Program-made: the position numbers and the translations under genes | In this document: piece by piece, positions 10,947 through 20,698 of the stretch | Layout: each line of letters begins with the position of its first letter | Numbering within the stretch: the first letter of the stretch is position 1 | Assembly: GCA_021792615.1 (NCBI GenBank) | Contig: JAJYUJ010000040.1 | Location: 1-20,698, forward strand | Origin: a bacterium | GTDB lineage: Bacteria; JAMCPX01 | Reading direction: 5' to 3' | DNA length: 20,698 bases | Notes under the pieces: generated by a model | Database searches by the model: none | Seen by the model: only the letters and a program-made list of their open reading frames with translations | Told to the model about the DNA's origin: nothing

Positions 10947-10961
10947 AACACACTGCATTAT

Positions 10962-11016
10962 CCGGGTTAACCCGAAAAATGCAATAAGGAGGTTTACTTA
11001 TTCGCTCAATCCCGCG
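10962..11016 (+). repeat. Decayed third copy of the small-ORF repeat
   Basis: The palindrome CGGGTTAACCCG (10963-10974), then AAAAATGC and AATAAGGAGGTTTA, match the copy near 20473-20513 except for a nine-base deletion between those blocks. After the ribosome-site-like AAGGAGG the match fades (only CCCGCG is still shared) and no ATG is present, so the small ORF is lost. It points toward the inverted copy at 11072-11190; AATAAGGAGGTTTA (10983-10996) is a perfect 14-bp inverted match to 11156-11169. Confidence 0.75.
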
Positions 11017-11071
11017 ATCCACCTGATATCTATACATTTCCATAGAGAAACGAGATTTCAGTCCTCTGTAT

Positions 11072-11190
11072 GTTTATATGCAATTACCCGGTATGGTTTC
11101 CTCATCGGATTTTCGAAGAATACCTTTATCTGACGCGGGATTATCGCTCATGGTATAAACCTCCTTATTTTGCAAATGCATTTTCCGGGT
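11072..11190 (-). repeat. Full copy of the 119-bp small-ORF repeat (inverted)
   Basis: Read on the minus strand from ACCCGG at 11190, this matches 20480-20598 over 119 positions with about ten substitutions and no gaps. The match begins at the last base of the helicase stop codon and ends two bases after the stop of the 25-codon ORF. The palindrome present in front of the other two copies is not preserved here (TTGACCCGG instead of TTAACCCGA). Confidence 0.9.
11074..11151 (-). CDS. 25-aa small ORF carried by the repeat, copy 1
   Basis: ATG at 11151..11149 opens 25 codons ending in TAA; the peptide begins MSDNPASDKG and ends TIPGNCI. AAGGAGG at 11166..11160 sits eight bases before the ATG, an ideal Shine-Dalgarno. 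The peptide is polar and charged, with no membrane segment or signal peptide. The copy at 20519-20596 keeps the start, frame, length and stop, with four amino-acid changes (N4K, I11M, E17K, C24S) and one silent change. It lies 38 bases after the helicase stop on the same strand and could be the last gene of that operon. I do not recognise the family. That the ORF is translated is inference. Confidence 0.5.
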   Translation of the reverse strand: MSDNPASDKGILRKSDEETIPGNCI

Positions 11191-12755
11191 CAATCAGTCT
11201 CGCTTATCTCAAGGATCCGGTCGATGCGGAATGTCCGCGTCCCGTTGCGCGTGTGGCAGAACGCCTGCACGCCGGTGTAGGTTTTCCCGAGGTATTCCAT
11301 CTCACCGACAGCGAGGGGTGTTATGAGCCGGACGGACTTTGTGTCATTGTTCTTGAGGTATACTATCTTGAGTGCCCTTTCCTCCCCGATGGCATTCCGG
11401 ATAAGCCTTATCTTGTCATCTGCCGGCAGGAGCCTGTCCGATAGCTTATACTGGTACTCCGTTACAAATCTGACCACCCGCCGGTCAATGAAAATATGCC
11501 TTTTCTCTACCGGCTTTTTGAGGATAATGCCCTCAAGACACGTGCACCTGCTCAGTGCCACGTACATCTGACCTGTAGCAAAGGTGCCTTTGCCGATATC
11601 GATGACAACCTTTTCGAAGGTTTTCCCCTGGCTCTTATGTATGGTCATTGCCCATGCAAGCTTGATGGGGTATTGCGTGAACGAGCCGTTGACCTCGGAC
11701 TCGATCTGCCGTTTCTGTTTATCGTACTGATAGGTGAAAAGCTCCCATGTGTAGGGTGCGACATCGGCAATTTCCCCGTTGGTCAGTTCGACGATCACGA
11801 TGTCCCGGTCGCCGCTCTCCTGGTCTATGGCCGTTATCCTGCCGATGCTCCCGTTCACCCATCTGCCGGAGGGATCATTGTTGAGCAGCATTACCTGTGC
11901 GCCGATCTTCAACTGGAGGTTGATCTGTGTCGGCAGCGCGTCCTGGGTAAAGTCTCCCTGGATCTCGCCGTCATAAGAGAGAGTATCCCCCTGTAATTGA
12001 GAAAGGTGCTGCATGTTTATCCTGCCGGAAGCCTCGTTGGTGGATGTCAGCCAGACATAAAAATTGTCCGGAACGGTCATGGAGTCAGGATCCACGTCCG
12101 GCCGGTATCTGCTGTTCAGGAGCTGGAGCTCTTCACCGGTCACGGAATTGTTCCGGATTGCATTGAGCAGTGCGATAAACGATTCATCCTTCTGACGGTA
12201 TATCTTTTCAAACTCGATAAACTCCATGCCGAGCCCTTGCATCACCTCAGCATCGAAGAAGAACGGGGATGCATAATGATCCTTGAATGCCTCTTTTTCC
12301 TTGCCGCTGACTACGGGAGGAAGCTGGTAGAGATCCCCGATGAAGATCATCTGTATGCCGCCGAACGGGGAACGCTTGTCCCTCCCGTTCAGCCTGAGGA
12401 ACTTGTCGATACAGTCCATGAGGTCTGCACGCACCATGGACACCTCGTCGATAATGATCGCATCGAGTTCCTTGTAGAAGTCTCCGCCCTGTTTGACTTT
12501 TTTAACCGATTGGAGCGCGACATTGGGCTTGAAGCGGAAAAAGGAGTGTATGGTCTGCCCCTTGACGTTCAGAGCTGCGACACCCGTCGGGGCGAGTACC
12601 ACCAATTCTTTTTTCGTAGTGCTGCGGAAATAATCCAGGAGTGTGGACTTGCCGGTGCCCGCCCTGCCGGTGATGAACGCGTGATGGCCCGAACCTTCCA
12701 TGACCTCCAGGGCTTTTTTGAACTGATCGTTTAACTCGATATTCTTTTTATTCAT
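11190..12755 (-). CDS. PIF1-like superfamily 1B helicase with C-terminal WYL-like domain
   Basis: 521 aa. Helicase motifs: Walker A GRAGTGKST (30-38), motif Ia VVLAPTGVAA, Walker B IIDEVSMV (101-108), motif III FIGDLYQLPPV (138-148), Arg in EKIYRQ, TIHKSQGKTF (371-380) and YVALSRC (398-404). These fit PIF1/RecD2-type 5'-3' DNA helicases. Residues about 460-518 read ALKIVYLKNND...RLITPLAVG...GVQAFCHTRNGTRTFRIDRI, the pattern of a WYL domain (aromatic strand, Arg-x-Ile-x-Pro, 'R-x-FR-x-DRI' end), a ligand- or nucleic-acid-sensing fold frequent in defence-linked proteins. It starts 24 bases after the MazF-like gene on the same strand with no clear ribosome site, and its stop abuts the small-ORF repeat. 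Helicase call firm; WYL call likely. Confidence 0.88.
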   Translation of the reverse strand: MNKKNIELNDQFKKALEVMEGSGHHAFITGRAGTGKSTLLDYFRSTTKKELVVLAPTGVAALNVKGQTIHSFFRFKPNVALQSVKKVKQGGDFYKELDAIIIDEVSMVRADLMDCIDKFLRLNGRDKRSPFGGIQMIFIGDLYQLPPVVSGKEKEAFKDHYASPFFFDAEVMQGLGMEFIEFEKIYRQKDESFIALLNAIRNNSVTGEELQLLNSRYRPDVDPDSMTVPDNFYVWLTSTNEASGRINMQHLSQLQGDTLSYDGEIQGDFTQDALPTQINLQLKIGAQVMLLNNDPSGRWVNGSIGRITAIDQESGDRDIVIVELTNGEIADVAPYTWELFTYQYDKQKRQIESEVNGSFTQYPIKLAWAMTIHKSQGKTFEKVVIDIGKGTFATGQMYVALSRCTCLEGIILKKPVEKRHIFIDRRVVRFVTEYQYKLSDRLLPADDKIRLIRNAIGEERALKIVYLKNNDTKSVRLITPLAVGEMEYLGKTYTGVQAFCHTRNGTRTFRIDRILEISETD

Positions 12756-12779: not shown

Positions 12780-13142
12780 TCAGGTGCTTATCGACCGCGG
12801 CTCTATGAGAAGTTTGACCCCGTTTATTATCCGGGCTGTTTTTTCAGCCGGCAGACTGCCTGCTTTTTCGACAAGGAATGCTTTGTCGACCGTTATTATC
12901 TGGGATATGTTTACCACACTATCTTTGGTCAAGCCGCCTTCGCCTTTCTTTAAAAAGACATTGCCGGGAGCATGTGCGAGTTTTAGGTTTGACGTTATGG
13001 TACAAACAACGACGGTATTGATCTTGCTCTTATTAAAAACATTATTTTGAATTACAACGACAGGACGTGTATATCCAGGCTCTGAGCCCTCAGGGATTTC
13101 CGCATCAACCCAGAAGATATCCCCTTGACCTATGAACTCCAC
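12780..13142 (-). CDS. mazF: MazF/PemK-family toxin (endoribonuclease)
   Basis: 120 aa. Family marks: GDIFWVDAE near the N terminus, GYTRPVVVIQNN with the conserved Arg26, VVVCTITSN with a Thr at position 48 or 50 in the catalytic region, and GGLTKDSVVNISQIITVDK. MazF toxins cleave mRNA at short sequences. The start is a GTG lying directly after the antitoxin stop (TAAGTG), with no in-frame ATG nearby, so translation is probably coupled to the antitoxin. Key residues look intact, so the toxin is probably active. The partner antitoxin is upstream, the usual order. Confidence 0.9.
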   Translation of the reverse strand: MEFIGQGDIFWVDAEIPEGSEPGYTRPVVVIQNNVFNKSKINTVVVCTITSNLKLAHAPGNVFLKKGEGGLTKDSVVNISQIITVDKAFLVEKAGSLPAEKTARIINGVKLLIEPRSIST

Positions 13143-13391
13143 TTAATATTTCTCTTTCTTCAACATGCGCATGGAATGATGGTTGTTGAACTTTCTGGCA
13201 TCACGGTCCTCCGGTGTTTCGGCATCTGCATACGCTTTATTGAGTGTGTCAAGAAGCTCTGCAGCGGACTTTTTTTCAAGAAGATCTTTGACTGCTCTGA
13301 CGAATACTTCGCTACGGGAGTAGTGGTGCTGTTTTGCAAATGCATCCACTTCCCTGAATATGGTATCCGGTACCGATATGGCTGTTTTCAT
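13143..13391 (-). CDS. Ribbon-helix-helix antitoxin of the MazF-like toxin
   Basis: From Met at 13391 the protein is 82 aa and begins MKTAISVPDTIFREVDAF, a typical ribbon-helix-helix strand and helix, followed by YSRSEVFVRAVKDLLEKK as the second helix. The C-terminal half is charged and probably flexible, the part that would neutralise the toxin. The protein should bind its own promoter as a dimer. A Met six codons upstream (13409) is in frame, but it lies inside the predicted promoter spacer, so the 13391 start is preferred. The stop is immediately followed by the toxin GTG. Confidence 0.88.
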   Translation of the reverse strand: MKTAISVPDTIFREVDAFAKQHHYSRSEVFVRAVKDLLEKKSAAELLDTLNKAYADAETPEDRDARKFNNHHSMRMLKKEKY

Positions 13392-13397
13392 ACTTTT

Positions 13398-13426
13398 AAT
13401 ATAACCCATAGTAATACCTATGTCAA
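13398..13426 (-). promoter_or_regulatory. Promoter with internal operator for the toxin-antitoxin operon
   Basis: TTGACA (13426..13421), a 17-base spacer and TATATT (13403..13398) make a near-consensus promoter. An imperfect palindrome, CATAG-N6-CTATG (13407-13422), lies across the spacer and -35 end, a good site for antitoxin binding. The predicted start of transcription falls on the ATG at 13391, implying a leaderless message. Confidence 0.6.
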
Positions 13427-13808: not shown

Positions 13809-13867
13809 TTGATGGAGTCTCCTGAACAAAAAAGAGGAATGATAAATTTTTAATGCAGGAGGATAAA

Positions 13868-14227
13868 ATGATAAAAGCTCTAATTTTAATTCTGTTATTC
13901 ATCGGAATTTTGTCAACAATCACTTCATGTTGTACTTTTTTGAGCGGTGATTGGTACAATGATAGTTTTTCATGCCAAGCAGCTTATGATTGGAAGAATG
14001 CTGGGTTTACTTTGGAAGAAACAGAATATTGGGTAAATCTTGCTAAAGTTAATAATCCAAAAGAAGCACAGAAATGGAAAGATGCTGGTTTTACTCCAAC
14101 AGAAACAGCCCGTTGGAAAGAATGTGCTAAGCTCGACTGTGGTTTTACTTTTACTTTAGGCGATGCTTTGAAATGGAGAAACGCTGGTTTTACTGCTGAT
14201 GAAGCAGAAGATTGGCTGATGCAATGA
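13868..14227 (+). CDS. Small lipoprotein with three W-AGFT-E-W helical repeats
   Basis: From Met at 13868 (AGGAGG at 13857-13862) the protein is 119 aa. It has a hydrophobic signal segment (MIKALILILLFIGILSTITSC) whose end ITSC fits a lipobox, so it is probably a lipid-anchored envelope protein. The mature part carries three copies of a roughly 20-residue unit: AYDWKNAGFTLEETEYW, AQKWKDAGFTPTETARW and ALKWRNAGFTADEAEDW. The spacing suggests paired helices. An earlier ATG at 13853 lies upstream of the ribosome site and is not preferred. The stop overlaps the next ATG (ATGA). Function unknown; the region is more AT-rich than its neighbours. Confidence 0.72.
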   Translation: MIKALILILLFIGILSTITSCCTFLSGDWYNDSFSCQAAYDWKNAGFTLEETEYWVNLAKVNNPKEAQKWKDAGFTPTETARWKECAKLDCGFTFTLGDALKWRNAGFTADEAEDWLMQ

Positions 14228-20472: not shown

Positions 20473-20598
20473 CGGGTTAACCCGAAAAATGCGTTTGAAA
20501 AATAAGGAGGTTTATGCAATGAGCGATAAGCCCGCGTCAGACAAAGGTATGCTTCGAAAATCCGATAAGGAAACCATACCGGGTAATAGCATATAAAC
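20473..20598 (+). repeat. Full copy of the small-ORF repeat with leading palindrome
   Basis: The perfect palindrome CGGGTTAACCCG (20473-20484) precedes AAAAATGCGTTTG, AATAAGGAGG and the 25-codon ORF. Positions 20480-20598 match 11190..11072 without gaps at roughly 91% identity. The palindrome is shared with the decayed copy at 10962-11016. The match with copy 1 stops at base 20598, where the 13-bp inverted repeat begins. Confidence 0.9.
20519..20596 (+). CDS. 25-aa small ORF carried by the repeat, copy 2
   Basis: ATG at 20519 opens 25 codons to TAA at 20594-20596; the peptide begins MSDKPASDKG and ends TIPGNSI. AAGGAGG (20504-20510) stands eight bases before the ATG, exactly as in copy 1. 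A nearer ATG at 20514 meets a stop after two codons. Length, frame, start and stop agree with copy 1, with four conservative to moderate replacements and one silent change. It lies past the hairpin at 20429-20463, so it would need its own promoter or read-through. Not recognised; translation is inference. Confidence 0.5.
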   Translation: MSDKPASDKGMLRKSDKETIPGNSI

Positions 20599-20692
20599 CC
20601 CGTTAGAAATGTCGGAATAATACAGATGTTTTTATAATAAATTTTCAATCTATCGTCGTACAAATTATCATCTGCTGAGTTTCTAACGGGGT
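20597..20692. repeat. 13-bp inverted-repeat pair bounding a 96-bp AT-rich element
   Basis: ACCCCGTTAGAAA (20597-20609) and TTTCTAACGGGGT (20680-20692) are exact reverse complements enclosing 70 AT-rich bases without an ORF. It abuts the small ORF stop with no gap. It could be a miniature inverted-repeat element, the end of a larger mobile element continuing beyond the window, or a long hairpin. No target-site duplication can be seen for certain. Confidence 0.65.
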
Positions 20693-20698
20693 GAACAT

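Follow-up and report, generated by a model that had tools for sequence, protein, structure and literature searches.

A 25-codon ORF led by a ribosome-binding site is very probably an incidental part of a 219-bp transposase-less MITE in an uncultured bacterial lineage

Within a bacterial contig segment of 20,698 nucleotides (the whole stretch analysed, hereafter the window), two copies of a 119-bp sequence were described in an earlier note, each carrying a Shine-Dalgarno-led ORF of 25 codons. This raises the question of whether the repeat is a vehicle for a small gene or whether the gene-like appearance has arisen in some other way. The two copies, at 11072-11190 (minus) and 20480-20598 (plus), indeed align without gaps and with 10 mismatches, five each in the 39-base leader and the 78-base ORF, and the ATG, the frame, the length and the TAA are identical in both; an internal repeat search of the window returned a 122-nt inverted pair (91%). 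On comparison with further copies and with related genomes, the feature is very probably a transposase-less MITE of 219 bp whose insertion at TTAA-like sites duplicates 4 bp, and in which the small ORF, like its ribosome-binding site, is incidental.

Element boundaries and copy number

The 119-bp stretch is the left half of the MITE TTAA|CCCGAAAAATGC...GCATTTTTCGGG|TTAA. As a repeat unit it proved too short, since the right half (10971-11071) had been overlooked, and the element proper extends over 10971-11189 with 4-bp flanking duplications and carries a terminal inverted repeat at either end (CCCGAAAAATGC and GCATTTTTCGGG; the imperfect arms are longer). The homology had also been thought to end two bases after the stop codon in both copies, an appearance that arises because the second copy alone carries a nested 94-bp inverted-repeat insert right there (20598-20691). 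The features of the two loci, with the basis of each, are as follows.

10955..10966, minus strand: solo terminal-repeat remnant GCATTATCCGGG adjoining element 1 (also in the sister species without the element)
10967..10970, no strand: target-site duplication TTAA, outer copy, element 1 (sequence; target-site duplication statistics over 55 unique full copies)
10971..11189, minus strand: element 1, a complete MITE of 219 bp, short form, no nested insert (BLAST and extracted copies)
11074..11151, minus strand: 25-codon ORF (MSDNPASDKGILRKSDEETIPGNCI) within element 1, judged incidental (copy and frame comparisons)
11190..11193, no strand: second target duplication of element 1, TCAA, one mismatch to TTAA (sequence, target-site duplication statistics, empty site in the sister species)
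20477..20480, no strand: target-site TTAA, element 2 (sequence)
20481..20698, plus strand: element 2, the same MITE in its long form, truncated by the window and contig end (contig C73 ends at 20698)
20519..20596, plus strand: 25-codon ORF (MSDKPASDKGMLRKSDKETIPGNSI) within element 2, judged incidental (copy and pair comparison)
20598..20691, plus strand: nested 94-bp inverted-repeat element CCCCGTTAGAAA...TTTCTAACGGGG (copies compared; L152 of another genus has it at the same point)

Element 1 matches a full element elsewhere (L017) by BLAST with 93% identity over 227 bp (10967-11193). The two copies of the window are a real pair, but the number is understated: the genome of the window holds at least 40 copies (40 BLAST matches to the unit, most of them full-length), which makes the repeat far more frequent than expected by chance, and the terminal repeat gave 82 matches in this genome versus 0 for a reversed control. 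Two forms were found among all copies compared, a short one of 219 bp and a long one of about 316 bp, and no protein family was credibly matched, so that the element is short, multi-copy and transposase-less as a MITE should be.

Each of the nine genomes belonging to the window's taxonomic family contains the element. Outside the family, a search of 89 genomes yielded only a handful of short matches (25-33 bp, E above 8e-5), and no match was obtained in the plasmid and phage collections and viral contigs searched. Those relatives that bear a name in the GTDB collection are uncultured MAGs, and one of them carries the label Deltaproteobacteria.

Target-site duplications and presence in related species

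The 4-mers on the two sides of the element are identical in 42 of 55 unique full copies, mostly as TTAA (permuted mean 23.6, maximum 34 in 10,000). When neither flank is TTAA, they are still identical in 11 of 15 copies (permuted mean 1.4; 0 of 10,000 permutations as high), the identical non-TTAA duplications being TGAA, TCAA, TTTA, TTCA, TAAC, TAAA, ATAA, and CTCA. Four-base target duplications are thus strongly supported, and the description of the repeat as dispersed and mobile holds, the mobile unit being a MITE. The flanks of copy 1 itself differ by one base (TTGA/TTAA, element strand), a point against the MITE reading.

In the sister species G003, whose flanks are 96-97% identical, no element is found at the copy 1 site; the empty site reads GCATTTTCCGGG-TTAA-TCAGTC with a single TTAA, and the window has there the element plus one extra 4-mer. 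The solo end at this site is present in both species, and loss from the sister species by end-to-end recombination is therefore possible. The copy 1 site is a presence/absence difference between species, by gain or loss. In G002, an element sits immediately beyond the helicase gene that flanks element 1, though at another position, and was judged to be an independent insertion.

Coding potential of the small ORF

The earlier note proposed that the repeat could be a mobile mini-cassette for a small protein or a signalling peptide, in which case it would have spread because of, or during, expression of a selected peptide. The 25-codon frame, which is intact in 43 copies from the clade of the window, an upstream Shine-Dalgarno-like motif in many copies and a frame running nearly from arm to arm, about 50 codons long, in sister genera (G005 and G008) would all agree with such a cassette. 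However, purifying selection on either the 25- or the 50-codon peptide could not be detected, pN/pS being near 1 and no better than in other frames. For the 25-codon frame, 36 unique sequences from the clade of the window give a pN/pS of 0.87 (bootstrap 0.52-1.6); the shifted sense frames give 0.80 and 1.82, and the antisense frames 0.54-0.83. This is the comparison of frames that the earlier note had called for, and it does not single out the ORF. For the 50-codon frame of G005 and G008 the value is 0.83 (0.58-1.23), the shifted frames having 1.05 and 0.83. In a subset restricted to G008 the ORF frame gives 0.47, with an interval up to 1.13, and another frame 0.50. These comparisons pool related sequences and their intervals are approximate. 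Between the two window copies, four of the five differences in the ORF are non-synonymous (N/K, I/M, E/K, C/S), a pattern unlike that of a protected peptide.

Start codon, frame and Shine-Dalgarno motif are also not kept across copies. Starts have been lost in L024 (ATA) and in L087 of a sister species, L006 carries a frameshift, and a 23-bp insert breaks the frame in L034, L035, L039, and L040; frameshifted copies were exactly what the earlier note had named as evidence that the ORF is incidental. In the window's lineage, a 1-nt length difference in the middle of the element brings in a TAA. The ORF is best read as a stop-free region that the two arms enclose; it spans about 50 codons in sister genera and is shortened to 25 by this 1-nt difference. 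A Pfam search of the peptides returned nothing credible, and the window has no match in Rfam; the suggested small protein, signalling peptide or regulatory RNA found no backing. From these data we infer that the peptide has no function, and the small ORF with its ribosome-binding site is most likely incidental. A cassette for a selected peptide is considered extremely improbable. Hardly more probable is an ancestral IS1380-type, TTAA-targeting MITE with a real 50-residue peptide (MSDKPASN-GILRIS...AYKLTED...LRWIAGLSE) that aided its spread, remained visible in sister genera and decayed in the window lineage.

Terminal inverted repeats and hairpin

The apparent ribosome-binding site has an explanation in the inverted repeat, which further weakens the case for a peptide cassette. 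AAGGAGG belongs to the imperfect terminal inverted repeat: it is located in the left arm, and its pairing partner on the right is CCTCC. The motif had been reported as preserved, which is not the case family-wide: in the own genome, 15 copies have AAGGAGG, 11 have AAGGAAG, and 8 have AAGAAAG. Left and right arms agree in their variant in 44 of 58 copies (24.1 on permutation, at most 36), and this covariation together with the variants indicates that the motif tracks the inverted repeat and not translation.

The hairpin formed by the window copy is strong (-78.7 kcal/mol versus -48.7 +/- 5.5 for shuffles), which might point to a structured RNA, or to a bidirectional terminator or mRNA-processing hairpin at gene 3' ends, kept for its function. 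The positions of the copies seem to agree: of 29 own-genome copies that have neighbouring genes left and right, 14 are flanked by convergent, 12 by tandem, and only 3 by divergent genes, the gene context being taken from ORF-only gene calls, and an ORF-only test of 31 full own-genome copies found no ORF spanning the element and hence no in-frame insertion into a host gene. Nevertheless, the hairpin energy results from the inverted-repeat arms, which are common to any MITE and which form the main pairing in the consensus fold, and the bias in position is expected from selection against insertions into genes and promoters. The lack of an Rfam match and the missing element at the orthologous site in the sister species also argue against such a role, which is considered very unlikely. 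The gene-end positions fit tolerated insertion of a MITE.

Neighbouring genes

In the window, positions 11190-11193 contain the TGA stop (complement) of the flanking helicase gene (11190-12755, minus). Insertion exactly at the stop of a neighbouring ORF was observed here and in L013, L014, L015, L021, L022, L027, and L032. The stop lies within the TTAA-like duplication, which thereby restores the end of the gene; such placement is expected if TTAA supplies TAA.

Two other loci of the window were recorded. At 12780-13409 (minus), adjacent ORFs of 88 and 120 aa resemble, by eye, a ribbon-helix-helix antitoxin and a MazF/PemK-like toxin, and at 13853-14227 (plus) a lipoprotein-like ORF of 124 aa contains repeats of about 30 residues (W-NAGFT-EEA--W).

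Candidate source of the transposase

By a search with PF13701, an insertion sequence with the same ends as the MITE, and therefore a candidate autonomous partner, was identified in G006, a relative from the same taxonomic family. It reads TTAA|CCCGAAAAATGCATTT...AAATGCATTTTTCGGG|TTAA and measures 1620 bp end to end. Its transposase matches PF13701 (E=6.9e-23) and the NCBIfam IS1380 model (3.7e-49), the 167.5 bits of this fragment, which is without the N-terminus, falling just below the curated cut-off of 180. The gene is split across two frames and the enzyme may be dead. A remnant transposase that is 79% identical and has the same right end is present in G007. In the window's own genome no IS1380 transposase turned up, and the mobilising enzyme there is absent, lost or unassembled.

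Based on the ends and the target duplication, an IS1380-family transposase with the same ends would have cut and pasted the MITE in trans, and an IS1380-family insertion sequence of the G006 type is the likely source of that enzyme. The sequence shared by the insertion sequence and the MITE comprises only about 16 terminal bases, which would not establish descent of the MITE from the G006 insertion sequence.

This short shared stretch and the own genome, in which no IS1380 transposase was found, leave some room for mobilisation by a different transposase family. On the other hand, the G006 insertion sequence has exact ends and a TTAA duplication, the remnant in G007 repeats the right end, and ten loci with PF01609 transposases, examined as possible partners in five genomes of the family, were all without such ends. 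A mobiliser outside the IS1380 family is thus considered unlikely. Two other candidates were rejected: a 1.9-kb pair of ends in G004:C274 consists of a solo end and a fortuitous match within a gene, and no transposase lies between the two; a weak PF13701 match in the own genome (G000:C18) falls short of the cut-off and is not accompanied by matching ends.

Nested inserts and length variants

In the long form, the 94-bp palindromic insert CCCCGTTAGAAA...TTTCTAACGGGG directly follows ...GCATATAAA; in element 2 it is flanked by TAAA (20594-20597) and TGAA (20692-20695). A long form in another genus (L152) has the insert at the same point, which indicates that both element forms are old, and the insert also occurs alone (L194:206-298), which makes it a repeat in its own right. 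With TAAA-like 4-mers at its flanks and one fixed point in the long forms of two genera, this palindrome has the appearance of a second MITE-like family. ERIC elements likewise have length variants with internal inserts.

Further variants were observed among the copies. A hairpin insert of 23-27 bp (GGGGTACCCA...TGGGTCG) is located in the left arm in L034, L035, L039, L040, and L072 and at the mirror-image position in the right arm in L068, L075, L079, L080, and L152, a placement which suggests that the arms of the element exchange sequence. L024 and L026 are long forms of 423-424 bp with some 107 extra bases (TGAACGGGTGTTCGCCGCAATCC...) within the nested insert; these bases resemble the flank of L008, a third nesting level of repeats. 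L098, L099, and L102 are very short derivatives of about 60-95 bp with little beyond the two element ends.

Significance and relation to known elements

These results explain a recurrent false signal, in which the inverted-repeat ends of a MITE mimic a Shine-Dalgarno motif and a start and pass as a conserved small gene. They also describe a MITE family that is abundant in an uncultured lineage of Deltaproteobacteria, in which it interrupts assemblies and occurs in nested arrangements with other repeats. Through its ends, this family is linked to an element of the IS1380 family whose TTAA target is piggyBac-like.

Several prokaryotic MITEs with open frames have been reported, including ERIC/RU, pneumococcal BOX, the Rickettsia palindromic elements and others (PMC10969869, PMC2759123). 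ERIC/RU, BOX, and the Rickettsia palindromic elements resemble the present MITE in being short, repeated, transposase-less inverted-repeat elements with possible small open frames, but differ from it in sequence, ends and target site. Moreover, the Rickettsia palindromic elements and some RU fuse in frame into host genes, whereas no copy of the present MITE was seen to do so. A limited search of the open-access literature yielded no account of a MITE with this sequence and a link to IS1380.

With the IS1380 family (PF13701, NF033539), the likeness lies in the G006 insertion sequence, which has the terminal sequence CCCGAAAAATGCATTT of the MITE and the 4-bp TTAA duplication; the MITE has no transposase and shares with this insertion sequence the ends alone. 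IS1247, another member of the family, makes a 5-bp duplication (PMC3281130). The piggyBac elements of eukaryotes duplicate the 4-bp TTAA, occasionally TAAA, TCAA or CTAA, and have CCC ends, and IS1380 serves as the outgroup in their tree (PMC10813416). The likeness of the MITE to piggyBac is confined to the target and the end bases (TTAA, CCC), as it is bacterial and has no piggyBac protein. Taken together, the element is a new MITE family of a kind that is already known.
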